Shown piece after piece: positions 5,518 through 22,220 of a DNA stretch of 34,748 nucleotides (position 1 is the first letter of the stretch; each line of letters begins with the position of its first letter). Source of the stretch: Campylobacteraceae bacterium. GTDB lineage: Bacteria; Campylobacterota; Campylobacteria; Campylobacterales; Sulfurovaceae. Location of the stretch: the NCBI GenBank assembly GCA_027038295.1, contig JALVXD010000186.1, forward strand, positions 1-34,748. Reading direction: 5' to 3'. The translations under genes were made by a program, and so were the position numbers. The notes beneath the pieces are model-generated. The model searched no databases. It worked only from the letters and a program-made list of their open reading frames with translations, and was not told where the DNA came from.

Positions 5518-7791
5518 ATGAATAAAAAACAAAGTATTGGACTCTGTTCACTACTCTTGACATCTGCTATTGCAAATGCGAATGTAAGTGGTACAGTATA
5601 CCAAGATTTACCTTTAAATGTGGCTAATTTAAACACATTTGGGACAAAAGACAGTAATGAAAAGGGAGTAGCTGGGATTACAGTCAAAGCTTATTCTGAT
5701 TCAGGTACTACTACAACTACAACCGACGCAAATGGTTTATGGTCTTTAGCATCTACAGGTAAAGTAAAAGTAGAGTTTACAAACATTCCCTCTTATTTAA
5801 AAGAGAGTGCTGGTCAATCATCCGTACAGTTTATTGATGATGGTGCAAGTACAGTAGATTTGGCACTTTACAACCCAGCAGAATATGCAGACTCTGCTTC
5901 AAACAATGTTGCCATGACACTTCAACCTAACTCAGCATACCCTGGTGTAGTTTCACTTAAAATACTTAATAAAGATGATATACCTACAGGGGATAATGGT
6001 ACCAATCCAACAACAGCGAATGATACTCCTCTATCACAAACTGGTTCGATATGGGGTCTTGCCTACGATAGCTCTACTGAGATATTTTATGCTTCAGCAG
6101 TAGTAAGACGACATGCAGCTATGGGAGACGAAGGATTAGGTGCTATTTATCAAATAAAAGATGGGGTAGCTACTCTTTTTACAAAAGTTGAAAATGTAGG
6201 AACCATTCCATCAAATATAGATAGAGCAATAGCAACTCAACAAAATCACGACTCTGTTTTTGATGAAGTAGGACGTGTAGGACTGGGTGATATAGATATA
6301 AGTGCAGACGGTACAAAACTTTATACTATAAACTTAAATACCAATCAGCTTGTAGAGATAGATATAAAAACTAAAGCAAAAACTACTCATGATATTGGAA
6401 ATCCATTTCAAAATTGTCCTTCTAATGATGTGAAATCATGGGGTATCGGTCAAAACAGTGCTAAAGTTTATGTGGGTTCTATTTGTACATCAAACACTAC
6501 ACAAGGTGCATACATTTCAGAATTTAACGGTAATACATTTACTCCATTCCATCATATACCATTAGATATGAAAGGGGAAAATTCAGTAGATACTCAGCAT
6601 GCAGGAAATACCTTAGCCAACAATAAAAGATGGGGAAAATGGATTATAAACCCAACTGACTTATTTAAAGGTGTTCCATACCGTTCTAGTTTAGCAGCAC
6701 CAATACTATCTGACATTGTTTTTGATGAAAACAACAATATGATTATAGGTTTTACCGATCGTACTGCACTACAATCAGGAACAAGAAATTTTAGTCCAGA
6801 TACAAATGATAATAATCCTTATAAATATGACTCAGCTGGTGATATCTATAAGGTATGTAATATATCTGGAAATTATGTTAATGAAGGAGAAGCAGGATGT
6901 ACCCAAAATGATGCTAATGCAGTCGCACCAGCTTATCCTGAATTCTTTACAGATGAAGAGTGGAATACTGGAAGACACAAAGAGACAGCATTAGGTGGAC
7001 TGGCTTATCTACAAGGTTCACATTCCCTTATAAGTTCTTCTTTTGACCCTACAAGTTTAGATGATACTACCTACAATACTTCTGGTCTAATTTGGATGAA
7101 TACTCAAAATGGACATAAAACTTCAGGACAAAGAATGGTTGGAGGGCCAACTGACATTAGTTATCAAGGTAAAGCAGGAGGAATAGGAGATATTGAAATT
7201 TTAACAGCTTCAGCTCCAACAGAAATAGGAAACAGAGTTTGGTTTGATGAAAACAAAAACTGTGTTCAAGATGCCAATGAATCAGGTATTGCAGGAGTAG
7301 AAGTTAGCTTATATGCCTCTACAGATTGTACAGGTGTAACTGAAGGAACAGCAACTACAGATGCAAATGGTAGATATTTATTTCCTGTTAAGGCTGGTAA
7401 AGATTACAGTGTATGTATTAACAATATAGCTGGTCAATCTGTACTCAATGATAAAAAATTAACCTGTAATACAAAGGGCACATCTATCAACAACAGTGAT
7501 GCTATAGTTGATGGTAATGATGCTAAAATAGCTGTTGCTCCATTAACAACGGGTGCCAATAATCACGCATTTGACTTTGGATTTGTTAATAAAGATGCTA
7601 ACATTCCTACCCCTGTGGTAGTACCAGAACAAAACAACTCAGTAAACGATGTAAATAATTCATGTGATTGTAATAGTTATACAGAAGACTCATCTCCTGC
7701 ATTAAACGTATGGAGTGCAATGTTGCTTATAACTTTAACATCTTTTATGGCTTTTCTTTTCAGAAAAGAACTTGAACAACCAAGTAAATAG
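5518..7791 (+). CDS. Secreted SdrD_B/beta-propeller protein with IPTL-like C-terminal sorting tail
   Basis: This 757-residue protein has a signal peptide ending near residue 21 (IANANVSG). The first domain (about 22-125) is a prealbumin-like SdrD_B/carboxypeptidase-regulatory fold (GVAGITVKAYSDSG, TTTDANGLWSL). The middle (about 125-565) looks like a beta-propeller, with recurring blocks such as GSIWGLAYDSSTEIFYASAV and GLGDIDISADGTKLYTINL. A second SdrD_B domain runs from about 568 to 690 (EIGNRVWFDENKNCVQDANE, then ATTDANGRYLFPV). The final 30 residues resemble a sorting tail: PALNVWS, a hydrophobic helix, then RKELEQPSK. This is close in pattern to IPTLxxWG-CTERM or PEP-CTERM signals handled by exosortases, but not an exact match. 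It is probably a surface or envelope protein; ligand and function are unknown. It is monocistronic, with a terminator hairpin after it. Confidence 0.75.
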   Translation: MNKKQSIGLCSLLLTSAIANANVSGTVYQDLPLNVANLNTFGTKDSNEKGVAGITVKAYSDSGTTTTTTDANGLWSLASTGKVKVEFTNIPSYLKESAGQSSVQFIDDGASTVDLALYNPAEYADSASNNVAMTLQPNSAYPGVVSLKILNKDDIPTGDNGTNPTTANDTPLSQTGSIWGLAYDSSTEIFYASAVVRRHAAMGDEGLGAIYQIKDGVATLFTKVENVGTIPSNIDRAIATQQNHDSVFDEVGRVGLGDIDISADGTKLYTINLNTNQLVEIDIKTKAKTTHDIGNPFQNCPSNDVKSWGIGQNSAKVYVGSICTSNTTQGAYISEFNGNTFTPFHHIPLDMKGENSVDTQHAGNTLANNKRWGKWIINPTDLFKGVPYRSSLAAPILSDIVFDENNNMIIGFTDRTALQSGTRNFSPDTNDNNPYKYDSAGDIYKVCNISGNYVNEGEAGCTQNDANAVAPAYPEFFTDEEWNTGRHKETALGGLAYLQGSHSLISSSFDPTSLDDTTYNTSGLIWMNTQNGHKTSGQRMVGGPTDISYQGKAGGIGDIEILTASAPTEIGNRVWFDENKNCVQDANESGIAGVEVSLYASTDCTGVTEGTATTDANGRYLFPVKAGKDYSVCINNIAGQSVLNDKKLTCNTKGTSINNSDAIVDGNDAKIAVAPLTTGANNHAFDFGFVNKDANIPTPVVVPEQNNSVNDVNNSCDCNSYTEDSSPALNVWSAMLLITLTSFMAFLFRKELEQPSK

Positions 7792-7838: not shown

Positions 7839-9308
7839 CTATCTAAACTCTTGCTCAAAACTTCTAAACTTTTTATCTAACTCTTCAATTTTATTGTGAT
7901 TAACAAAACTATCTTTTTCTAATGAGTAAGGATGCCACTCTACTTTATGGAAAAAACTTTGCCAATAGCAGTACGTTTCATAATTATAGACACTGTCCCA
8001 AGAAATAAGATTAGACACTTCAAAAGTCTCCACGGTATAATCATACTCATTTTTTAAAATTTCAATAAGCTCTTTATCTTCTAATCTAGTTGATATTTTA
8101 TTAAATATTTCTAAATTACGACTATAGACCGTACCAAATGGCTGACCATGAGAGGTAAAAACAATAATATCCGTAGCATCATTATTAATCAGTGACAAAT
8201 ACTTATCTTTATTATAAACAATACTCTTGTCATAAGAACTAAAAAGAATAGAAGCGTTTTCATCTAAAAAACTTAATTTTTTATCACTACTTATGGTAGC
8301 ATTAGGATACTCTTCTTTTAACAACTCTACTAAATCTTTATTTTTAAGATGTTCTTTTGAAAGTAAAAAAACATTTTGTTCGCTACTTGGCATAGAGTTA
8401 AGTACTTGTATAATCATCGGTTTCCCTGAAATCTCAAGAAAAGGTTTTGATTTACTGTACTCTTTGTAGCCAACTTTTTCAAACTCTATACTCTTATCAA
8501 GTAGTGAAATAATATTTACACTATTGCCTTTAGCTAAAGACTCTTGTGGCTCTTTGATTAAACCAGCAAAATAATCAGACCAGTAGTTATAATCTTCTAC
8601 CTCTTCAGGAACTCCCCACTGCAACATATGGTGAATATTATAAATAGAGACCTTTAAATTATCTTTTACTAATAAATTATAAACCAATGAAACATAATAT
8701 TCATCATTATAGGTAATTTTTTTATCAATTAGCTCTTTAAAGTACTTCTTTAAAATGCTACCTTTTTTAAAATAGTATGTTCCATTAGAGACATACTTCT
8801 CCATAGCCTCATCAATAGGCTCCTTCTCTTTAATCTCATCCATCCACTGCTCTGTATCGGTAGAGAGGGCATAGTTGGTACCACTAAACATGTGAGGATG
8901 AAACTTCTTATAGGAGACAACTGCACCATCAGCATCTCTGTCTCGTGTATGTTTTAAAAAATCTTCATAATCCCAATAAATTCCAAAGTCACAATAGTTA
9001 ATAATAATCTCTTCATCATCCTCTATCAAGTCCAATATTTGTAAAACTGTATATACTGGTCCTTCAGTATGGTTTGGGATTTCTATAACATTTGCATGGG
9101 GTTGAATTTTTAGCAACTCTTCTCTCATGTTTGTCTCTGCCAAGTGTTTAGCATTGCAGATAAAAGTAAACTTTGTCTCACTTGGAAAGATATCACAAGC
9201 ATGACCTACAATAGTTTTACCATTAATTTTGATTAATGGTTTTGGTTCTTTGTATCCTGCTCGAACAAACCTATTTCCCACTCCAGCCATAGGTATAACT
9301 ATATGCAT
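7839..9308 (-). CDS. Sugar-phosphate nucleotidyltransferase with a degenerate second copy of the domain
   Basis: This 489-residue cytoplasmic protein begins with a classical nucleotidyltransferase signature (MHIVIPMAGVGNRF, then EPKPLIKINGKTIVGHA). The first domain covers about residues 1-250. The second half (about 265-489) looks like a diverged repeat: SKPFLEISGKPMIIQVLNSM parallels the pyrophosphorylase KPLIKINGK segment, and both halves end in aromatic-rich motifs (WGVPEEVEDYNYWSDYFAG and SWDSVYNYETYCYWQSFF). The second half lacks the glycine-rich GxGxR loop, so it is probably not catalytic. The family transfers a nucleotidyl group to a sugar phosphate or similar phosphate. It is the last gene of the polysaccharide operon and follows the HAD phosphatase by 19 bp. 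Substrate and nucleotide are unknown. Confidence 0.75.
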   Translation of the reverse strand: MHIVIPMAGVGNRFVRAGYKEPKPLIKINGKTIVGHACDIFPSETKFTFICNAKHLAETNMREELLKIQPHANVIEIPNHTEGPVYTVLQILDLIEDDEEIIINYCDFGIYWDYEDFLKHTRDRDADGAVVSYKKFHPHMFSGTNYALSTDTEQWMDEIKEKEPIDEAMEKYVSNGTYYFKKGSILKKYFKELIDKKITYNDEYYVSLVYNLLVKDNLKVSIYNIHHMLQWGVPEEVEDYNYWSDYFAGLIKEPQESLAKGNSVNIISLLDKSIEFEKVGYKEYSKSKPFLEISGKPMIIQVLNSMPSSEQNVFLLSKEHLKNKDLVELLKEEYPNATISSDKKLSFLDENASILFSSYDKSIVYNKDKYLSLINNDATDIIVFTSHGQPFGTVYSRNLEIFNKISTRLEDKELIEILKNEYDYTVETFEVSNLISWDSVYNYETYCYWQSFFHKVEWHPYSLEKDSFVNHNKIEELDKKFRSFEQEFR

Positions 9309-9327: not shown

Positions 9328-10002
9328 TTAAATTTTTATCTCTTCAAATGAATGAACTTCTGTTACAATATTAGTATTATATAGTTTATTTTCCTTTTTT
9401 AAATTAATCCAAATGGCATCTATTCCTAAATTGGAAGCACCAACTATGTCTTTGTTAAAACTATCCCCTATCATACAAACTTCATCTGCATTTAGATTCA
9501 TTTTTTTTAATGCAGCCATAAACATATAAGGGTGAGGTTTTTCTCTACCTGCCTCTTCACTTGTTACCATAAGAAAACTATATTGGTCTAATTTTAACTC
9601 TTTTATTTTTCTATGTTGTATATGTGCTGTTAAATCTGTTACGAAACAAATTCTATTTTTATATTTTTCTAAAAACTCATAAATTCCATTAAAAGGTTTC
9701 ATGGAAGCTAGAAATGTGTCCCAATATAAGTCATAAACTATTAAACCATATATTAGAGGATTAGCCTCTAACAGCTCTAACATTTTTTGAAAATAGAGTA
9801 GTCTGTTATGTGATGCAGCCGTATGTCCCAATTCAATTTGAACCAAATTTCTTGCTTTTGTATAGGCTTCATTTAGCTCTTTTTCTGATAGAAAAAACTT
9901 TTCTTTTAGAAACGTTATAACTCTATTTAAAGCTATTTTATGGCTATTATCATAATCGTATAATGTATTGTCAATATCGAGTAATATGCCTTTATACTTC
10001 AT
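9328..10002 (-). CDS. HAD-family phosphatase
   Basis: This 224-residue soluble protein has the four HAD motifs: DIDNT (residues 9-13, nucleophile Asp), VTD in CFVTDLTAH, the Lys-containing EKPHPYMF, and MIGDSFNKDIVGA for the Mg-binding acids. The alpha-helical cap between motifs I and II is typical of subfamily IA phosphatases (phosphoglycolate phosphatase/YjjG-like). It lies 3 bp after the GT-C/kinase gene and 19 bp before the nucleotidyltransferase. A dephosphorylation step in making a nucleotide-activated precursor is a plausible role, similar in logic to GmhB in heptose synthesis. That role is inferred from gene order only. Confidence 0.85.
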   Translation of the reverse strand: MKYKGILLDIDNTLYDYDNSHKIALNRVITFLKEKFFLSEKELNEAYTKARNLVQIELGHTAASHNRLLYFQKMLELLEANPLIYGLIVYDLYWDTFLASMKPFNGIYEFLEKYKNRICFVTDLTAHIQHRKIKELKLDQYSFLMVTSEEAGREKPHPYMFMAALKKMNLNADEVCMIGDSFNKDIVGASNLGIDAIWINLKKENKLYNTNIVTEVHSFEEIKI

Positions 10003-10005
10003 CTT

Positions 10006-11997
10006 TTATCTATCCTCTTTTAATTTCTCACTGATAAGTAAAACCAACATAAATTGAACAAAACCATCATAACCATGTTTCCATCTTGCATTTTTATCAA
10101 TAATTTGGTCAACATTCAAAATAAAATTTTTCGATAAATGTGTATAATTATTCGTTGGTGCTTCTCTTAACTCTATATATTGTGTTAATAAGTCTTCATT
10201 GTAATCCCAAGTATAATTTGCTTTTAAATTTTCTAGAATATGTTCAATATTAATACTCGCATCAAAAGTAATTTTTACACCATGTGCAACCTTTTCTGTT
10301 TCACCTAGGCTAAAGTCATGCAATGGGAAATAGTGAATAATAACATCAGCAAACTTTTTTTGAGGGTAAATGTACTTGGTTGTATCTTCAAGTCGTGTAC
10401 TAATTTGTTCTAAAATTTTCTCTTTACTATAGCCTCTATTTTTTGTATCACGTAAAATCTTCCAATGCTGTCTAAGTCTTTCATCAGTATCCATATAAAC
10501 TTTTATATCTATTGTTTTTCGAAGTTTAGGTAAGTAAAATGGATGCAGTCCCGAAATAACAATAATCTCTTTTGGTAACAGTTTTGAAGGGGTCGTAAAC
10601 TTACCAGTATCATGGTCATATTCACTTCTATAAATGGCTCTATTTTGCTTTAATTCATTTATCCCCTCTGCCTGTTTATGAATATAATTCGCTTTTGGAT
10701 CTAAATGCGTAAATTTGTCCCAATTTTTATCTCCTCTTTCCCATTTATGCTCTCCATCACCCTCTATTTCCAATAAATTATCTCTAAAAATTAAAGTTAA
10801 ATTTGTAAGAAGCAAACTTTTTCCAACACCACTATCTCCACCAATCCCTATCGCCAAATTTTTCTTTTGTCGATACATGGAGTTCATTCCAATACTATAA
10901 CCATATGCAGCTACGGTAATAAGCGTCATTACTTCAAGAAATGTATAAGCGATATCTCTAAAAGTTGTATTGTAGACTTTAAAACCAATAGGCATTTCTA
11001 AAAATTGTATGCCTAAATCTTTTTCTTGATAAAAGAAGATAAAAAAGATAAAATAAAAGACAGTAAATAGAGAGTAAAAAGAAAGAGATTTCTCTTGATT
11101 TTCATGTTTTATAAGATAAATTGATAAATAAGGAACCATATAGACATACAGTTCAGGACGAGGGAAAATAAACAGTATACTAACGCTAAATAATAGACCA
11201 AAATACAAATAAAGTAACTGCTCATTCACTTGTTTTTGATTGAAAAAATAATAATAAACCAACAATATGGAAGATAAAGAAGCCAATATTTTTAATTCTC
11301 CTATAGCAAAAGATGCTCCTGCAAATGATTCTTTTAATAATAGAGTAACCATAGTAACAAACTCACCATTCAATAGATAAGGTATATTAAGTACTATAAA
11401 TATAAACAGAGTAATAAAGATGTATCTAACGGATTCTTTCAGATTTTCTTTAGTATAAATAAAATAAAAAATAATAGGTAACACAATTATCATATATATT
11501 TCTGAAGCCATTGCTAGTCCCATAAATAGAGCTGAATACAATAGATTCTTTTTTACGGTTAGCATATAAGCAGTTGAGAGTAATAGTGCCGTAGAGATAA
11601 TAGTAAAATGAACATTTACATAGGTTATATAAATAATAATGGGATTAAGGAAGTAATAAATATATATTTTTTTTCTATATTCCACAAAAAAATGAACTAA
11701 AATATAAAGAATTATATAGTCACTAAGAAGTAATGGCAATTTAAAAATTATATTGATTAAAATCATAGAATCAATATTAAAAAAGTTTATTATAGAAGCT
11801 AAAAAGGAGTATATATATATCAATAATGAATGAAATGGATATATTAAAAATTCATTGTTAAAATAAGACTCTCCTCTATTAGTAGCTTCTAAAAAAGTCA
11901 TAAAAATACTATCTGTATAACTTGAGCTAAAGAGAGCAAGAAATGCTACTTTTATTAACAACATAATACCAATTTTCATACTAAATACTTTTAACAT
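10006..11997 (-). CDS. Membrane GT-C-like domain fused to a phosphoribulokinase/uridine-kinase-like domain
   Basis: This 663-residue protein joins two parts. Residues about 1-375 are a polytopic membrane region with around ten helices. A first periplasmic loop (YTDSIFMTFLEATNRGESYF, then YPFHSLLIYIY) and FLNPIIIYITYVNVHFTII recall GT-C mannosyl- or glycosyltransferases. Residues about 380-600 are a P-loop kinase: Walker A GDSGVGKS at 387-394, IEGDGEHKWERGDK, THLDPKANYIHKQ, ISGLHPFYLPKLR, HWKILRDTKNRGYSKE and YIYPQKKFADVII. These follow the order of motifs in phosphoribulokinase/uridine kinase enzymes. The Glu usual in EGLHP is Ser here. The ATG at 11997 has a weak GGAA about 12 bases upstream. 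I know of no characterised protein with this fusion; the substrates of both halves are unknown. Confidence 0.72.
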   Translation of the reverse strand: MLKVFSMKIGIMLLIKVAFLALFSSSYTDSIFMTFLEATNRGESYFNNEFLIYPFHSLLIYIYSFLASIINFFNIDSMILINIIFKLPLLLSDYIILYILVHFFVEYRKKIYIYYFLNPIIIYITYVNVHFTIISTALLLSTAYMLTVKKNLLYSALFMGLAMASEIYMIIVLPIIFYFIYTKENLKESVRYIFITLFIFIVLNIPYLLNGEFVTMVTLLLKESFAGASFAIGELKILASLSSILLVYYYFFNQKQVNEQLLYLYFGLLFSVSILFIFPRPELYVYMVPYLSIYLIKHENQEKSLSFYSLFTVFYFIFFIFFYQEKDLGIQFLEMPIGFKVYNTTFRDIAYTFLEVMTLITVAAYGYSIGMNSMYRQKKNLAIGIGGDSGVGKSLLLTNLTLIFRDNLLEIEGDGEHKWERGDKNWDKFTHLDPKANYIHKQAEGINELKQNRAIYRSEYDHDTGKFTTPSKLLPKEIIVISGLHPFYLPKLRKTIDIKVYMDTDERLRQHWKILRDTKNRGYSKEKILEQISTRLEDTTKYIYPQKKFADVIIHYFPLHDFSLGETEKVAHGVKITFDASINIEHILENLKANYTWDYNEDLLTQYIELREAPTNNYTHLSKNFILNVDQIIDKNARWKHGYDGFVQFMLVLLISEKLKEDR

Positions 11998-12038
11998 ATT
12001 GCTATACTATTCCTTCTATATATTCTTATAATTCTTTT

Positions 12039-13307
12039 TTAATTGTTTAAGTTATAAAATTTATTTTCTATCTTAGTTTTTTTCTTCTCTATTTGATTCC
12101 CATTTTTATCCTCTACTATTGTATAGTGAAGCATTATCGTTATCCAAAAAAGTGGATATAAAAAATATGTTTCAGAGGTTAATAAAAGTAATATAAGTAA
12201 TACTATCGAAATTCCCATATAGTCACCATTTTTCCAGTGATATCTACTGTACGTTGAAAATGATTTGTACATAAAAAAAAGTATTAGCATAAAAAATGGA
12301 AGACCAAATCGTACAATTAAATCTGTACTTCCAACCGTTCTAATATCATTTGTAAGTCCAGAACTATACATTGTCGTAAATCTAGTAAGTTTATTTGGAC
12401 CACGACCAATTATTTCGTGACCTTGAAAATCACGCCAATCTTTAAGCATACTAGCAAACCTATCTGTACTCGCACCTTCCAAATTTGGTGAGTTCATTAA
12501 TTCACGAGCATCTTCAAACTGTTTTTCAATTTTTTTACCTAAAAAATCTAAATTTGTATAGGCGACATATCCTATAGATATTAGTGAAAAGAGCAATATT
12601 ATTTTTAATAAAATATTTTTTACTTCTCGATTAAATATAAAGGTTAAAAACAAAAGTAATGCAATGTAAGCTGTTGAGGACTGTGTTGTTATGATAGCTA
12701 TAATTAAAACTATATTTGTTTTATTATTTAATTCTGGGTTAGTTAAATAATTAATCATTAATGACAAAAGTAAAAACCCTCCAAATGCTCCCATCTCCCA
12801 AAATGGTCCTGGATTCCTCATTTCATATCCAGGAACAATAGTATATAGCCCCATAATACTATATCTTGATTGCATGTAGTCTCCTTCTTGTACATATAGA
12901 AGGAGTTTCTCGATTAAGACATCACTAAAGTCTGGTATCAATAGAACTGGTATGTAAAAAACAAAACTTATTAAGGCAATATAATACATTACTTTGACAA
13001 ATTTATCAGGAAAATCTACAACACTTTTTAAAATAAAATAGGCAAGCAAAATCCTAACAAAAACTCCTAAAAAAGTGATGATTGGAAAAAAATCAAATTT
13101 AAATGTTTGCAAAATAAATATAACCATTAGTCCTATAAGAAAATAAACAAAACTGACATCAAATTTACTTCTTCTATAAAAAAACAACCCTGTTGCTAAT
13201 ATAAAACCTGTAAATAAGGCTATTTTATTTTGATTAAATAGAATACTCCCAGATATAAAAATAAGTGCTGTAACCATGAAATAGTCTATGATTGTATTAA
13301 TACGCAT
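12039..13307 (-). CDS. O-antigen polymerase/ligase family membrane protein (Wzy-like)
   Basis: From the ATG at 13307 the product has 422 residues. This start is preferred over one 90 bp further upstream because GGAGCGAG precedes it, the N-terminus becomes a clean membrane helix, and overlap with the flippase gene disappears. About ten to twelve membrane helices are visible. One large periplasmic loop (about residues 265-345) contains NLEGASTDRFASMLKDWRDF and EIIGRGPNKLTRF, the loop type of the Wzy/WaaL superfamily. It would join repeat units delivered by the flippase on the periplasmic side. Polymerase and ligase cannot be told apart from sequence alone. The flippase gene ends 34 bp upstream. 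Confidence 0.78.
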   Translation of the reverse strand: MRINTIIDYFMVTALIFISGSILFNQNKIALFTGFILATGLFFYRRSKFDVSFVYFLIGLMVIFILQTFKFDFFPIITFLGVFVRILLAYFILKSVVDFPDKFVKVMYYIALISFVFYIPVLLIPDFSDVLIEKLLLYVQEGDYMQSRYSIMGLYTIVPGYEMRNPGPFWEMGAFGGFLLLSLMINYLTNPELNNKTNIVLIIAIITTQSSTAYIALLLFLTFIFNREVKNILLKIILLFSLISIGYVAYTNLDFLGKKIEKQFEDARELMNSPNLEGASTDRFASMLKDWRDFQGHEIIGRGPNKLTRFTTMYSSGLTNDIRTVGSTDLIVRFGLPFFMLILFFMYKSFSTYSRYHWKNGDYMGISIVLLILLLLTSETYFLYPLFWITIMLHYTIVEDKNGNQIEKKKTKIENKFYNLNN

Positions 13308-13341
13308 TATAACTCGCTCCTTTGATTTAAACTCAATATAA

Positions 13342-14583
13342 CTATTGTATTTTATGCAATTGCTTTTGCTTAATATAATATACTCTAAAAGCAACACTGG
13401 CTAAAGTATACACTACCAGTGAAAATGATACGATATAAATATCTTTTGTTACATACGCTGCTACTGTTATAAAGACAACATATATTATTGATGCATATAT
13501 CAAACTAATATTAGCCTCTTTTATATAGCCAAATGCAGCCAATAAGGGATAACCTATTAAAGCATTAATAACACCAAATAGCGTACCTGAAAACATTATT
13601 AAAAATATATCACCCATTATCTCATTATTAATATTAAAAACTAATAATAAAATTTCTTTATAAAAATATATTATAGGAATTAACAAAGCTATTGATGCTA
13701 AAACAACAAGTAAAAAAGCTTTTTTGAAAAAAACAATATTTTTTGTTCTACTCATATAAGGATAAATGGTTTGTGCAACAATCCCTCCTAAGCTCATAAA
13801 AGCATAGTAAAGTTTTTCAATCATAGAGTAATACCCAACAACAACATTTCCAAAAATCATACCAATAATAGTAATAGCATAATACCTACTTCCATCATTG
13901 GCTACACGAGATAAAAAGAAGGCATAACTCTCTTTTAAATGTAAAATAAAATCTTCACGACTTGGCATAACAATCTTAATTTTATATAAACTAAATACCA
14001 ACCATAGAGAATATAGCCCTCCAATAACAGTACCAAGCGTATTTAAGAGAGGTACATATATATAATCATCACGCTCTTTTACGAGAACAAAAATTAAGAT
14101 AGTAAATAAAACCCTAGAAACAAAATTAATATAGGTTATATATTTCATTCTCTCCATCCCCTGAAAGAACCATGTAGGGAACAGTAAATTACCAAATACA
14201 AAACCAAATGTTACATAGTAAAGTGCTACATGTTCACCTAGTCTATCTACAAAGATTAGTAATAAAGTAAGAACTATATAAGAAAAGATAAATAATAAAA
14301 TTTTAATTAACATAACTGTTGAAAATATTTTTGATACTTTTTCTAAATTGTCTCTATTTATAGATATCTCTCTTGTTGCAGAGAGTTCAAATCCGAAACT
14401 TACCAAAATATTAAAATACATTATAATTGAGAGAGAAAAACTTACCAATCCAAAATTTTCAGCACCAAGTATCCGTACTAAATAAGGTAAGGTAAATAGA
14501 GGTAGAAACATATTTAACGCTTGTAACACGGAGAGTGAAAAGAAATTTGATATTAACGCTTTTTTATCCTCCAATGATGCCAT
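13342..14583 (-). CDS. Polysaccharide flippase (Wzx/MATE-like, oligosaccharide export)
   Basis: This 413-residue integral membrane protein has about twelve helices. It begins with the usual SLSVLQALNMFLPLFTLPYLVRILGAENFGLVSF stretch (split here: NMFLPLFTLPYLVRILG, then AENFGLVSF), typical of Wzx flippases. It would move undecaprenyl-linked repeat units across the inner membrane for the adjacent Wzy-like protein. The start codon lies 10 bp after the fcl stop, so both belong to one transcript. The repeat-unit structure it carries is unknown, though fucose is likely given gmd and fcl. The family assignment is firm and the substrate is not. Confidence 0.88.
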   Translation of the reverse strand: MASLEDKKALISNFFSLSVLQALNMFLPLFTLPYLVRILGAENFGLVSFSLSIIMYFNILVSFGFELSATREISINRDNLEKVSKIFSTVMLIKILLFIFSYIVLTLLLIFVDRLGEHVALYYVTFGFVFGNLLFPTWFFQGMERMKYITYINFVSRVLFTILIFVLVKERDDYIYVPLLNTLGTVIGGLYSLWLVFSLYKIKIVMPSREDFILHLKESYAFFLSRVANDGSRYYAITIIGMIFGNVVVGYYSMIEKLYYAFMSLGGIVAQTIYPYMSRTKNIVFFKKAFLLVVLASIALLIPIIYFYKEILLLVFNINNEIMGDIFLIMFSGTLFGVINALIGYPLLAAFGYIKEANISLIYASIIYVVFITVAAYVTKDIYIVSFSLVVYTLASVAFRVYYIKQKQLHKIQ

Positions 14584-14593
14584 CTGTTCTCTC

Positions 14594-15646
14594 TTACCTT
14601 TGCCCTATGTACCACGAGTACATCTTCTTTATACCATCTTCAAGCTCAACCTTATGCTTCCAACCCAAAGCATGAAGCTTAGATGGGTCTGTTAACTTAA
14701 TCATCGTACCATCTGGCTTCTCTGTATTAAAATAGAACTCACCTTTAAACCCAATAATATCTTGAATAATATAAGCCAACTCTTTAATAGAAATATCAAT
14801 ACCTGTACCAATATTGATATGCGTATTTCGTATCTCTTTATCATCTGAACTATAAGTATCTTTAAAATCTCTGTTTTCAAGCAAGTAGACACAAGCATCT
14901 GCCATATCTTCACTGTATAAAAACTCTCTTCTTGGATTACCTGTTCCCCAAATTTCAACTTTTTTAGCATCTACCCCAAAAGCAGCTAAATACTCTTTGG
15001 CTTCTTCTATAGTATTTAGAGCTAAATCAGCCATAACCTCCTCATCTTTACCCTCATTAAGCAATTTTGCCAAATGAATTTTACGAATAAGTGCAGGTAA
15101 AACATGAGATTTTTCCAAATCAAAGTTATCATTTGGACCATAAAGGTTGGTAGGCATTACGGAAATAAAGTTGGTTCCATACTGGATATTATAAGACTCA
15201 CACATCTTAATACCTGCTATTTTAGCTATGGCATAAGGTTCATTGGTATATTCTAATGGAGAAGTTAAAAGAGAATCTTCAGGCATAGGTTGTGGTGCAT
15301 TTTTAGGATAGATACACGTTGAACCAAGAAAAAGTAATTTTTCAACACCAGACTTATACGCCTGATGAATTACATTGTTCTGAATTTGAAGGTTTTCATA
15401 AATAAAATCTGCTCTATAGACATTATTTGCGACAATACCACCTACTTTTGCAGCAGCTAAAATAACATATTCAGGTTTTTCTACTTGAAAAAACTCCTCT
15501 ACAGCATTTGCATCTAAAAGGTTTAATTCTCTATGTGTTCTATAAACAAGATTGGTATAACCTTTTGCTTCTAAATTTTTAACAATAGCAGAACCAACTA
15601 AGCCTCTATGTCCTGCTATATATATCTTACTCCCTTTCTCCATCAT
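14594..15646 (-). CDS. fcl: GDP-L-fucose synthase
   Basis: This 350-residue short-chain dehydrogenase-type enzyme performs the 3,5-epimerisation and 4-reduction of GDP-4-keto-6-deoxymannose to GDP-L-fucose, using NADPH. The N-terminal nucleotide loop is IAGHRGLVGSAI, AAAKVGGI follows, and the catalytic set is LGSTCIYP (Ser) plus YAIAKIAG (Tyr, Lys). It is about 30 residues longer than the E. coli enzyme, owing to an insert around residues 200-230 (NEGKDEEVMADLALNTIEEA) before WGTGNPRREFLY. Two consecutive ATGs start the gene (15646 or 15643); AGGA lies 4 and 7 bases before them. It is 6 bp behind gmd and works directly after it. Confidence 0.93.
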   Translation of the reverse strand: MMEKGSKIYIAGHRGLVGSAIVKNLEAKGYTNLVYRTHRELNLLDANAVEEFFQVEKPEYVILAAAKVGGIVANNVYRADFIYENLQIQNNVIHQAYKSGVEKLLFLGSTCIYPKNAPQPMPEDSLLTSPLEYTNEPYAIAKIAGIKMCESYNIQYGTNFISVMPTNLYGPNDNFDLEKSHVLPALIRKIHLAKLLNEGKDEEVMADLALNTIEEAKEYLAAFGVDAKKVEIWGTGNPRREFLYSEDMADACVYLLENRDFKDTYSSDDKEIRNTHINIGTGIDISIKELAYIIQDIIGFKGEFYFNTEKPDGTMIKLTDPSKLHALGWKHKVELEDGIKKMYSWYIGQR

Positions 15647-15652
15647 GCAATC

Positions 15653-16774
15653 CTACTCAAAGTAATTCATAATGGTATAACCACCATCTTTAAGATACTG
15701 ATCTTTTGTCATAAGTTTCAAGTCACTTTCCATCATATCATTTACCAATGATTCAAGTTTATACTCACGTCTCCAACCAAGTTTAGTTTCAGCTTTCGTT
15801 GGGTTACCAAGAAGTAAATCGACCTCTGTTGGTCTGAAGTATTGAGGGTCAACTGCAACTACTTCTCTTCCAATCTCTAGTTGATAGTTAGGATTAGAAC
15901 AAGATACCACATAACCTTTTTCATCAACACCTTCCCCTTTAAATTCTAGCTCAACACCAGCATAAGCAAATGACATTCTTACAAAATCTCTTACTGTAGT
16001 CGTTGTACCTGTAGCAATAACCCAATCTTCTGGCTCATCAGCTTGAAGAATTAACCACATCATTTTTACATAATCTTTTGCATGACCCCAGTCTCTTTTT
16101 GCATCTAAGTTTCCAAGGTAGAGTTTATCTTGTAATCCAAGTGCTATTTTAGAAGCTGCTCTTGTGATTTTTCTAGTTACAAAAGTCTCCCCTCTCACAG
16201 GTGACTCATGGTTAAATAAAATACCATTACAGGCAAACATACCATATGCTTCTCTATAGTTAACGGTAATCCAGTAAGCATACATTTTAGCTACAGCATA
16301 AGGACTTCTTGGGTAGAAAGGTGTCGTTTCACTCTGTGGTGTTTCTTGAACTTTTCCAAATAGTTCAGAGGTACTTGCTTGATAGATTCTAGTTTTTTTA
16401 GCAAGACCAAGTAATTTAACAGCCTCTAAAATTCTAAGTGTTCCTGTACCATCAGCATTTGATACATACTCTGGAGTCTCAAATGAAACAGCAACATGAC
16501 TCATTGCAGCCAAGTTATAAATCTCATCGGGTTGTGTCTCTTGAATAATTCTTGTGATATTCATAGAGTCAGTCATCTCACCATAGTGTAAAATAAGGTT
16601 TCTGTTTTCCACATGTGGGTCTTGATATAAGTGGTCGATTCTATCTGTATTAAAAAGAGAAGATCGTCTCTTCATTCCATGAACGATATAACCTTTTTTA
16701 AGTAAAAATTCTGCTAAATAAGATCCATCTTGTCCTGTAATTCCTGTAATTAGTGCTACTTTTTGTTTTGTCAT
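15653..16774 (-). CDS. gmd: GDP-mannose 4,6-dehydratase
   Basis: The product converts GDP-D-mannose to GDP-4-keto-6-deoxy-D-mannose, the first committed step to GDP-L-fucose. Family motifs are complete: [18 protein letters not shown] (NADP loop), ASTSELFG (Thr/Ser), [16 protein letters not shown] (catalytic Tyr-x3-Lys), and the GDP-binding [17 protein letters not shown] place the start at the ATG at 16774 (373 residues), because GGA lies seven bases before it. An ATG 12 bp upstream has no ribosome site. It lies between manC and fcl, giving a complete GDP-mannose to GDP-fucose route. The phosphomannomutase that feeds ManC is not in the window. Confidence 0.93.
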
Positions 16775-16812
16775 TGTTTTTTCCATATTGTTTTGTTTTT
16801 ATATTATATAGT

Positions 16813-18180
16813 TTATCTCTGAAAATCATCTTCAATTCTAACGATATCATCTTCACCTGTGTACTCTCCAACCTGTGCTTCTATAAGCACCACTGGTATT
16901 TTACCTTCATTTTCTAATCTATGTATTTCCCCCATCTTAATATATGTTGACTCATTGGGTCGTATAAGCTTTTTCTCATCCCCAACCGTTACTGTTGCTG
17001 TACCACTTACTACTATCCAATGCTCATTTCGATGAAAATGTTTTTGCAAAGAGAGCCTTTTCCCCTGATTAACAATTATTCTTTTAATCTTATATTGGTC
17101 TGTAGAGAGTAACACCTCATAAGTTCCCCATGGTCTATGTGCTAAAGTATGTATTTTGGTTAAATCAGAATTCTTCTTTTTTAATTCAGCTACAACATTT
17201 TTTACTTTTTGTGTTGATTCTTTTTTAGAAATTAGTAAAGCATCATCCGTATCAATAATAACCAAATCTTCTATATCTATGGTTGCTACTTGTTTATTAG
17301 AGATAATAAGATTATTTGAAGAATCAATAGCTATTGGTTTAGAATCCAAAGGAGTCATCTCTTCAATTTCATTAGATAGAGCATTAAAATCACCTAAATC
17401 ACTCCACATTATATCAGACGGAATCACTTTGACTCTATCAGACTTCTCCATTACAGCATAATCAATACTATCTTCTGGAATATTTAACATATCATCTGTT
17501 TTAATTTTAAACTGCTTATCTGAGATATTTAACTTTTTAGAAAATGCTACTTCTGATGTTTTATATATTTCTGGTGAGTATTTACTTAGCTCTTCTAAGA
17601 AAATACCTGCTTTAAACATAAACATTCCACTATTCCAATAGTAATTCCCTTGTTCAATATAAGATTTTGCTGTCTCTAAATTAGGTTTCTCTTTAAAACT
17701 TTTAACATCTAAACCTTCTGCCTCTATATATCCAAATCCTACCTCAGGATAAGAGGGCGTAATTCCAAAAGTAACTAAGTTGTTATTTTTTACTTCTTCC
17801 TTAGCTTTTAAAATTACTTTTTCATAGGCTTCTTCATCTTTAATTAAATGGTCAGAAGGTGTTATTAACACGATTTCTTCTGCATCTAATGCCATACAAG
17901 CTAAAGCAATAGCTGGAGCTGTATTTCGTCCTACTGGTTCTAGTAAATAAGAAGAACTATTTTGTTTCTTTAAAACCTCTTCTTCTTGCTCTAATGCTAA
18001 GAAATACTGTTCACTATTTGAAACAATAAAGTTTGAATCACAAAGAAGAGAATTTCTCTCTAAAGTGAGCTGAAACAATGACTTATCATTGAATAACTTT
18101 ATAAATTGTTTTGGATATAAAGTCCTACTTAAAGGCCAAAGTCTCGTTCCTGAACCACCACATAAAATAATATTTGTCAT
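16813..18180 (-). CDS. manC: Mannose-1-phosphate guanylyltransferase/mannose-6-phosphate isomerase (bifunctional)
   Basis: This 455-residue two-domain enzyme has an N-terminal nucleotidyltransferase with the signature LCGGSGTRLWPLSR, then YPKQF. It makes GDP-mannose from mannose-1-phosphate and GTP. EPVGRNTAPAIALACMAL, FKEKP and YYWNSGMFMF are also present. The C-terminal cupin (about 340-455) is a type II phosphomannose isomerase, with metal-site residues in QKHFHRNEHWIVVSG and GEIHRLEN. Length is normal for the ManC/AlgA family. It is the first gene of the operon that ends at 7839, and a TATAAT lies about 95 bp upstream. It supplies GDP-mannose to Gmd and Fcl, which follow. Confidence 0.93.
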   Translation of the reverse strand: MTNIILCGGSGTRLWPLSRTLYPKQFIKLFNDKSLFQLTLERNSLLCDSNFIVSNSEQYFLALEQEEEVLKKQNSSSYLLEPVGRNTAPAIALACMALDAEEIVLITPSDHLIKDEEAYEKVILKAKEEVKNNNLVTFGITPSYPEVGFGYIEAEGLDVKSFKEKPNLETAKSYIEQGNYYWNSGMFMFKAGIFLEELSKYSPEIYKTSEVAFSKKLNISDKQFKIKTDDMLNIPEDSIDYAVMEKSDRVKVIPSDIMWSDLGDFNALSNEIEEMTPLDSKPIAIDSSNNLIISNKQVATIDIEDLVIIDTDDALLISKKESTQKVKNVVAELKKKNSDLTKIHTLAHRPWGTYEVLLSTDQYKIKRIIVNQGKRLSLQKHFHRNEHWIVVSGTATVTVGDEKKLIRPNESTYIKMGEIHRLENEGKIPVVLIEAQVGEYTGEDDIVRIEDDFQR

Positions 18181-20393: not shown

Positions 20394-20409
20394 TGTAGAT
20401 TATTCTACA
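20394..20409. terminator. Small hairpin at the acyltransferase stop codon
   Basis: TGTAGA (20394-20399) and TCTACA (20404-20409) form a 6-bp stem around TTAT that includes the stop codon of the acyltransferase. There is no U-run after it on the minus strand, so termination would be weak. Confidence 0.3.
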
Positions 20410-22220
20410 TTATGACTCTCTATAATTTCATGAAATAGCCCACTTAAGTAACGACTTCCTGTTAAGGTTAAATGCCCATTGTCAAAATAGAGTGGCACAC
20501 CCCCTTCATTGACATAAGCACACTCATTTTTACAAAACAGAGGAGCAGTCTCATAAATTTTAAAATTTTTAGATTTTATTTTTGATAAAAAAGCAAAATT
20601 TTCTCTATTTTTCAACCTATACTCCTTTTTTGTTTGCACAGGCAATGCCACTCCATCATGTTTATGCTCCCACAAGGTTTTAGGAATATTTATTTTATCC
20701 CAATAGGGAACAGGCATAATAAAGTCTACATTAATATGGTGTTTATCTGCTAAAATAGTTAAAGTTTCGATATTTTTTAATACTCTAGGAAGTTTAGAAA
20801 ACGAGTAATGCAAGACAATCGTATCTATCTTATAGTCTACGGCATCCTCAATAATCTCTTTAGGTCCAATTTGCCCTTTAAACATTGGTTCATTAGGGAC
20901 AATAAAAAAAACTTCACTGTTTAACTTCTCTGCCTCTTTTGCAAATGTCTGCTTAATACTATCAGCATGACTGTTACCAATAAGCATAATTTTCTGTTTT
21001 ACCAAGTCATCAGATAAATCGGTTAGTTTGCAATAGTGACTGTTTGGTTCCAAAATACGTTTCAGTTTACCACAACGATAAACATCTCTATCTTTAAATG
21101 CATTAGCAATCATTAACTCTTTTTTAGAGTATAAACTTTTTTGAATGCTTAGACCTCCAAATGCCATAGAGACAATGAGTAACGGAGCAACCCATAAAAA
21201 AGCTAAAAGATGTTTTATCTTTTTAGAACCCAGTTCTACGAGATGATACATCGCTACTGATGCCAAAACAATCAATATAAAAAGTATGCCCCTATCAACC
21301 ATACTCTCTGGTTTTAGTTTTGTACCAGAAAAAGGTATATAAAGATAGAGAACAATAATAGGAAAGTGTACCAAATAGATAGAGTAGGAGTATTGTCCAA
21401 GCTTTTCAAGGATTGTACCTACTTTTGAGAACTCTAAACTTTTCAAAAGTCCAAAAGCAAGTACCAGCCCTGTAGCCAAAGCAATAACAAGTGCATGTAG
21501 TCCAGGGTGTCCATCCATATAATTCATCGCTTCCCCATCGACATGAAGAAGAGGTATAGAGAAGATAATAATAAAGCCAATAGTACCTAAATATCTGTAT
21601 CTCTCTTGACGAATATTACCTGAGTTCGTAAAGTAGTGAGCAATTCCATAACCAATCAAAAACTCCCAAATTCTCAAAGGCATCATAAAAAATGAAGTTT
21701 TTGGAGAGATACCTAAAAGAGTAAAACAGAGTAGCAGTGAGCTTAGTAAAATAAGCATAAAAAAATAGCGATTTAATTGAAAGAAGAAAAAGAGTATAGG
21801 TATAATCAGATAAAATTGAATCTCAACACCCAATGACCACAAATGCAAAAGAGGGTTAAACTCAGATTTACTAAAATAGGAATTTTGTAACCAAAACCCT
21901 ATATTTGAGCTAAAACTACTGGCATAGATACTTTGCGAAAAGACCTGAGCATACTCATTTGGGGTTACTATAAAAATGGCTAAACAGACAGTTAAAAAGG
22001 TTACCACAAAATAGGCAGGAAGTAGACGTTTTGCTCTACGTGCAAAAAATGCTTTTTTATTGTCATGAGTATAAAGTATTGCCATAAGGAATCCACTAAT
22101 AACAAAAAATACATCCACACCTAAAAACCCACTTTGAAAGAGCGTAAAGCCCAAGTGAAATAGAACCACAAGCATAACAGATATGCCTCTTAATATTTGT
22201 ATATCTTTTCTATAATGCAT
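20400..22220 (-). CDS. Acyltransferase 3 with C-terminal SGNH domain (OafA-like)
   Basis: This 606-residue inner-membrane protein O-acetylates surface glycans in related systems. Residues 1-350 form the ten-helix acyltransferase-3 domain, with the conserved RGISVMLVVLFHLG (Arg and His), GVDVFFVISGFLM, HLWSLGVEIQFY and YSIYLVHFPI. Residues about 395-606 are a periplasmic SGNH domain: LIGNSHADSI carries the catalytic Ser, and FDNGHLTLTGSRYL carries the Asp and His. Length and layout are normal for OafA/YrhL proteins. A TTGTTA-N17-TATAAT promoter lies just upstream. A link to the fucose-containing polysaccharide is suggested by proximity only. Confidence 0.9.
   Translation of the reverse strand: MHYRKDIQILRGISVMLVVLFHLGFTLFQSGFLGVDVFFVISGFLMAILYTHDNKKAFFARRAKRLLPAYFVVTFLTVCLAIFIVTPNEYAQVFSQSIYASSFSSNIGFWLQNSYFSKSEFNPLLHLWSLGVEIQFYLIIPILFFFFQLNRYFFMLILLSSLLLCFTLLGISPKTSFFMMPLRIWEFLIGYGIAHYFTNSGNIRQERYRYLGTIGFIIIFSIPLLHVDGEAMNYMDGHPGLHALVIALATGLVLAFGLLKSLEFSKVGTILEKLGQYSYSIYLVHFPIIVLYLYIPFSGTKLKPESMVDRGILFILIVLASVAMYHLVELGSKKIKHLLAFLWVAPLLIVSMAFGGLSIQKSLYSKKELMIANAFKDRDVYRCGKLKRILEPNSHYCKLTDLSDDLVKQKIMLIGNSHADSIKQTFAKEAEKLNSEVFFIVPNEPMFKGQIGPKEIIEDAVDYKIDTIVLHYSFSKLPRVLKNIETLTILADKHHINVDFIMPVPYWDKINIPKTLWEHKHDGVALPVQTKKEYRLKNRENFAFLSKIKSKNFKIYETAPLFCKNECAYVNEGGVPLYFDNGHLTLTGSRYLSGLFHEIIESHNVE

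Follow-up and report, generated by a model that had tools for sequence, protein, structure and literature searches.

The succession of a kinase, a HAD phosphatase, and a nucleotidyltransferase is an established route to GDP-heptose. In haloarchaea, a ribulose-1,5-bisphosphate (RuBP) phosphatase and a ribulose-1-phosphate aldolase form a known pair (PMC9700705). On the side of sugar transfer, O-antigen glucosylation by Gtr systems uses GtrA, GtrB, and a type-specific GT-C glycosyltransferase, while Citrobacter youngae O1/O2 adds a pentofuranose by means of a GT136 system (PMC11127046). Among GT-C enzymes, the C. glabrata Gpi14 contacts its donor through Glu140, Lys173, Tyr319, and Trp322 (PMC12653191).

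It was found that a GT-C membrane domain and a phosphoribulokinase (PRK)-type kinase are encoded by one gene in a Campylobacteraceae bacterium of the Sulfurovaceae (GCA_027038295.1, contig JALVXD010000186.1). The window, that is, the whole stretch of DNA analyzed, is 34,748 nucleotides in length and belongs to a draft genome of 2.8 Mb in 293 contigs (96.6% complete), which has a single copy of the fusion gene. The gene (10006..11997, minus strand) is one ATG-to-stop frame of 663 amino acids, and stop codons are abundant on the plus strand across the same span. A sequence-only reading of this DNA had proposed an uninterrupted gene with exactly these coordinates and a series of kinase motifs (GDSGVGKS, THLDPKAN, GLHPFY, WKILRD..RGYS, and YIYPQ..AD), every one of which was found in the translation. 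It had also pointed out that a gene split in all close relatives would make the fusion a local artefact; the gene is one ORF in the sister species (91% identity) and in more distant genomes at 51, 48, and 34% identity, so the fusion is not such an artefact. Full-length fusions were found in genomes of Campylobacterota, Lachnospiraceae, and Alphaproteobacteria, on a plasmid of E. coli, and in contigs of temperate phages. In one Lachnospiraceae locus (L097, 8375-10466), the GT-C first part is a separate overlapping ORF, probably due to a frameshift. The product is almost certainly a two-part protein, in which a membrane domain of the GT-C kind is followed by a cytosolic, full-length PRK-type sugar-phosphate kinase.

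The assignment of the C-terminal half to the PRK family was borne out by profile and fold comparisons. The kinase core (residues 377-560; 10318..10869, minus strand) matched PF00485 over residues 383-561 with 121.7 bits (E-value 4.5e-35, cut-off 22). The nearest NCBIfam model was PRK07429, at 185.5 bits and under its own cut-off of 236, and the closest PDB chains by sequence were phosphoribulokinases. An AlphaFold model of residues 371-663, built from 14 related sequences, had a mean pLDDT of 90.9, and its best PDB matches were PRKs over about 300 columns (TM 0.81 over 307 columns for 9qkp). Because the match extends this far, the conserved C-terminal domain of about 100 residues (residues 561-663; 10009..10317, minus strand) corresponds to the C-terminal half of PRK, and residues 371-663 are modeled as a complete PRK fold. 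The equivalents of the PRK residues for ribulose-5-phosphate and ATP (D42, H45, R49, Y98, H100, K165, R168, D169, and R173) are present as D414, H417, R421, Y460, H462, K513, R516, D517, and R521, which are identical across the kinases of the gene cassette described below and PRKs. Work on MhPRK assigned several of these residues to binding the phosphate of ribulose-5-phosphate (PMC5241800), and all the checkable PRK residues reported to bind ribulose-5-phosphate are conserved in the cassette kinases. H417, R421, and H462 are absent from the uridine kinases in the comparison, and the fold match to uridine kinases reached a TM-score of 0.54, far below that for PRK; a uridine kinase was therefore rejected.

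On the other hand, Trp426 is invariant among the cassette kinases and not in PRK, and an HKWERG-type loop also distinguishes the former from the latter. The equivalent of PRK Glu131 is Ser482 in the window (codon 482, 10552..10554, minus strand; SGLH for EGLH). This replacement had been noticed in the sequence-only reading, where it was taken as a possible mark of a different substrate. The Ser itself was confirmed. The position is Ser, Ala, or Cys among the GT-C fusions, Cys in a phage group whose kinases begin with a 'GYLR' domain, and Glu in the remaining groups. Since Glu-bearing kinases exist in the same cassette, the Ser is a subfamily mark and poor evidence of a different substrate. In the kinase tree, the fusion types cluster cleanly; the GT-C fusions fall on two branches, with the root unsure.

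The membrane domain (residues 1-370; 10888..11997, minus strand) gave no match when searched alone against Pfam. A ten-member family profile matched the PDB entry 23gx (GPI mannosyltransferase 1, Gpi14/PIG-M) with an E-value of 1.5e-8, and homologues of the domain matched ALG3 (8e-6) and GT87 (2.7e-4). By hydropathy, the window domain has 11-12 membrane segments, instead of the roughly ten first proposed, and a 31-residue loop, in line with the 7-13 helices and the loop after helix 1 of GT-C proteins. From these sequence comparisons, residues 1-370 are assigned to the GT-C glycosyltransferase family. Most homologues have 12 membrane segments by topology, which places the kinase in the cytosol. 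A full-length AlphaFold model was poor (pLDDT 50) and was set aside, and hhalign gave no match between the membrane domain and the other GT-C-like protein of the cassette.

The residue spacing in the matched PDB chain fits the donor-contact positions of Gpi14. Its Glu140 and Lys173 map to D132 and K166 of the family inside the significant alignment, while Tyr319 and Trp322 map to W283 and W286 less securely, through a weak second alignment. D, K, W, and W are invariant at these positions in the compared homologues outside the genus, including three further Lachnospiraceae. In contrast, the window gene has Thr at codon 132 (11602..11604), Glu at codon 166 (11500..11502), and Leu and Tyr at the ends of codons 283-286 (11140..11151), all on the minus strand; the window and sister species together have T, E, L, and Y/F. 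The window copy thus lacks the donor-site residues of the family. Among all homologue-invariant columns, 12 of 24 are changed in the membrane domain versus 5 of 45 in the kinase (Fisher p 8e-4). GT-C activity has probably been lost in the window genus.

The genes around the fusion lie on the same minus strand. Three bases downstream is a HAD phosphatase gene (9328..10002), whose nearest NCBIfam model is ribulose-1,5-bisphosphate 5-phosphatase, below cut-off. It is followed by a tandem nucleotidyltransferase gene with an intact domain 1 of the IPMAGxGxRF type (8544..9308) and a degenerate domain 2 that has lost the GxGxRF and NGEY motifs (7839..8543). About 40 bases upstream of the fusion is a gene for a Wzy/ligase-like membrane protein (12039..13397; a weak Pfam match below cut-off), and further upstream are a Wzx-type flippase gene (Polysacc_synt; 13342..14583) and the GDP-sugar genes for a GDP-L-fucose synthase-like protein (fcl), gmd, and mannose-1-phosphate guanylyltransferase (manC) (14594..18180). 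The Wzy-like ORF begins with GTG and shares 56 bases with wzx (13342-13397), and its true start is probably a later ATG. The window also encodes a large secreted-looking protein beside the cassette (5518-7791), which combines an SdrD B-like domain with a membrane segment at its C terminus, and an acyltransferase-3 fused to an SGNH domain (20400-22220), likely a surface-glycan acetylase.

Is the fusion a curiosity of one genome? A recurring cassette was found, consisting of two nucleotidyltransferase domains, GtrA, a GT2 glycosyltransferase, a GDPD-like enzyme, the fusion, a HAD phosphatase, and a class II aldolase. The relatives at 51% (G142) and 48% (G091) and a Lachnospiraceae MAG have the fusion, a tandem nucleotidyltransferase, GtrA, GT2, a GDPD-like protein of 200 amino acids, and the aldolase; a HAD gene was observed at the G142 and G091 loci. 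Another Lachnospiraceae locus (L096) has the full gene complement, and in two Lachnospiraceae genomes the nucleotidyltransferase domains are encoded as separate genes. Across 27 distinct loci located via the kinase, including those with kinases fused to HAD or aldolase rather than GT-C, the kinase, aldolase, nucleotidyltransferase, and GDPD occur together in 26, the exception being at a contig end. GtrA and GT2 accompany the GT-C fusion in all eight GT-C loci among those listed.

The cassette is also found on mobile elements. The E. coli IncR plasmid NZ_CP145712.1 (L031, 6022-14984) carries it whole, with an IS26 transposase nearby, and among 5426 E. coli genomes the cassette occurs in 2. It was also found on a plasmid of Hirschia baltica and, intact, on plasmid p5 of Azospirillum brasilense. 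Two IMG/VR contigs have it, one with a CI-like repressor on one side and tail genes on the other, the second close to a terminase gene, as expected for lysogenic conversion. No further cassettes were found among annotated phage records. The window fusion thus very probably belongs to a mobile cassette, of which it is one form. The fusion partner of the kinase varies: it is HAD in Campylobacterales genomes, and an aldolase or an N-terminal domain of unassigned type in phage contigs. The fusions to HAD and aldolase tie the kinase to soluble sugar-phosphate enzymes. Viral contigs L059-L079 have a compact form with the kinase (often aldolase-fused), nucleotidyltransferase, GDPD, and a mini-HAD, where the aldolase, GDPD, and nucleotidyltransferase are PHROG families of unassigned function; in L068-L071 and L076, HAD and nucleotidyltransferase domains share one ORF (about 11400-12800). 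In one relative (L054, G466:C1:2264000-2283900), several stops break the fusion, GT2, and GDPD frames, which indicates that the cassette decays in some lineages. PADLOC gave no defence-system match for five proteins, and a defence system was rejected.

Some parts of the cassette are missing in the window genus. The locus has neither GtrA, as checked at the locus level, nor GT2, and neither a close GT2 nor a GDPD-like orthologue was found in the two draft genomes of the genus; the window genome has other GT2-type genes at low similarity. The three components of a Gtr system are therefore not together in the window. Because both genomes are drafts, the absence of GT2 and GDPD from the genus is only probable. 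The class II aldolase lies on a different contig of the window genome (65%) and is retained in both genomes. In nucleotidyltransferase domain 2, 28 of 44 homologue-invariant columns are changed versus 5 of 52 in domain 1. Pairwise dN/dS estimates between the window and sister species, a single genome pair, were 0.056 for the kinase, 0.02 for its C-terminal domain, and 0.05 for nucleotidyltransferase domain 1; that of the membrane domain was 0.20, which is still purifying selection, so some function may remain there. The missing GDPD, GT2, and GtrA and the degenerate domain 2 suggest that the genus has lost the half for lipid-linked transfer and kept the sugar-making half. This division is weakened by Campylobacterales cassettes, which retain domain 2 with no GT2 or GtrA nearby; the idea that domain 2 is tied to GT2/GtrA loses ground for the same reason.

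With a probability of about 0.6, I consider the cassette to be a Gtr-like system for glycosylation that brings its own arm for sugar synthesis, and the window protein to be mainly a membrane-anchored kinase of a soluble pathway. The kinase would convert an already phosphorylated, ketopentose-like sugar to a bisphosphate, the HAD enzyme would take off the other phosphate to leave a sugar-1-phosphate, and the nucleotidyltransferase would activate the product to a nucleotide-sugar. The class II aldolase might make, cleave, or epimerise the ketose phosphate in the same route; both this reaction and any role given to the GDPD-like protein are guesswork. Where relatives have an intact cassette, GT2 would attach a sugar to undecaprenyl phosphate, GtrA would flip the lipid-linked sugar, and the GT-C domain would transfer it to a surface glycan on the periplasmic side. 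In the window genus, the soluble set would comprise the kinase, HAD, the aldolase on another contig, and nucleotidyltransferase domain 1. The synthesis route is modeled on GDP-heptose-type routes and the haloarchaeal phosphatase/aldolase pair, and by this analogy the chances that the bisphosphate chemistry of the kinase and HAD is right are about equal to the chances that it is not. The transfer half is likened to multi-component glycosylation systems (PMC8035078; PMC11127046).

Might the enzyme be a true phosphoribulokinase of carbon or nucleoside metabolism, converting ribulose-5-phosphate to RuBP, which HAD and aldolase then split via ribulose-1-phosphate into dihydroxyacetone phosphate and glycolaldehyde? 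The conserved PRK residues and fold, the similarity of the HAD to RuBP 5-phosphatase, a weak ribulose-1-phosphate aldolase match in a phage copy, and the known haloarchaeal route (PMC9700705) are all in its favor. However, the nucleotidyltransferase and polysaccharide genes adjoin, Trp426 and the HKWERG loop separate the cassette kinases from PRK, and no RuBisCO was found in the six genomes searched, where controls matched. The last result speaks against a Calvin-cycle role, which had not been expected, and the whole explanation is unlikely, even though such chemistry could still be the first steps of the cassette route. It had also been proposed that the kinase acts on a glycan or lipid precursor, perhaps at the membrane face. 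The glycan-precursor context is supported by the cassette and the polysaccharide neighbors, whereas a lipid- or polymer-linked substrate, with the fusion as a delivery device, is a poor candidate: fusion to a membrane domain across many taxa and a topology that puts the cytosolic kinase at the membrane speak for it, but HAD::kinase and kinase::aldolase versions have no membrane part. Since these partners are soluble and the phosphate-binding residues of PRK are conserved, a soluble sugar phosphate fits better as the likely substrate.

The remaining explanations concern the fate of the window locus. The GT-C domain of the genus may still be active with a changed donor preference, served by a GT2 or a flippase with a gene elsewhere, as its purifying selection and the other GT2-type genes of low similarity would allow; this touches the membrane half only and is compatible with the preferred view of the kinase. 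It is rather doubtful, because D132, K166, W283, and W286 are all altered together and changes at invariant columns are concentrated in the membrane domain. Complete loss of function, with the entire locus decaying as a remnant, would agree with the degenerate domain 2 and GT-C donor site and with the broken G466 cassette, but the low dN/dS values of the kinase, its C-terminal domain, and nucleotidyltransferase domain 1, together with the retained aldolase, make this very improbable.

In the Gtr-like reading that I prefer, a PRK-type kinase operates outside carbon fixation and is tied to surface-glycan synthesis across several phyla and phages. This points to a sugar-activation route for which no description was found in the freely accessible journal papers searched. 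It is an even question whether five enzymes, namely the kinase, the HAD phosphatase, the class II aldolase, the GDPD-like enzyme, and the nucleotidyltransferase of the IPMAG type, constitute a pathway that has not been described, leads to a new nucleotide-activated sugar, and is disseminated by phages and plasmids. The PRK-type kinase would then be its hub, joined to the transferase, phosphatase, or aldolase according to the host version. The cassette may account for unassigned sugars of bacterial surface glycans. The ketose capsules of Campylobacter jejuni HS1 were considered as a product and rejected, since the available part of the source names a fructose transferase and no such cassette was seen in it. 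The cassette is a small, defined gene set, and expression of four or five enzymes could reveal its product. The lineage of the window amounts to a natural dissection of the sugar-making half from the lipid-transfer half.

How does the cassette compare with the described systems? The kinase shares with cyanobacteria-specific PRK (9qkp/9qko/9qkn) the whole-module fold, the P-loop, and the DxxH...R, Y.H, and K..RD...R motifs. It differs in the Ser/Ala/Cys of the GT-C-fused kinases at the Glu of EGLH, in the invariant Trp426 and the HKWERG-type loop, and in occurring with polysaccharide genes and no RuBisCO. The haloarchaeal pair likewise has a phosphatase and an aldolase after pentulose bisphosphate formation, while it serves nucleoside degradation and has no nucleotidyltransferase or glycan genes (PMC9700705). 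With Gpi14/PIG-M, ALG3, and GT87, about 130 residues align (window residues ~50-200), and intact homologues retain the acid and the lysine that contact the donor; in contrast to Gpi14, which has DxD in the first extracytoplasmic loop, the family has no invariant acid there, the fusion adds a C-terminal kinase, and the donor residues of the window copy are changed. The C. youngae system, in the parts of its description available, has in common a lipid-linked donor, a flippase, a GT-C, and a fusion-tied HAD phosphatase; its donor is made from PRPP by a polyprenyl phosphoribose synthase and its flippase is of the MATE type, where the cassette has GT2, GtrA, and nucleotidyltransferases, and no PRK-type kinase was seen in those parts (PMC11127046). 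As in Gtr glucosylation, intact cassettes hold GtrA, GT2, and GT-C, and two of them are on temperate-phage contigs. Unlike in Gtr, the donor site of the window GT-C is lost, the GT-C of the cassette bears a kinase, and the cassette brings its own sugar-synthesis set of kinase, HAD, aldolase, GDPD, and two nucleotidyltransferase domains.
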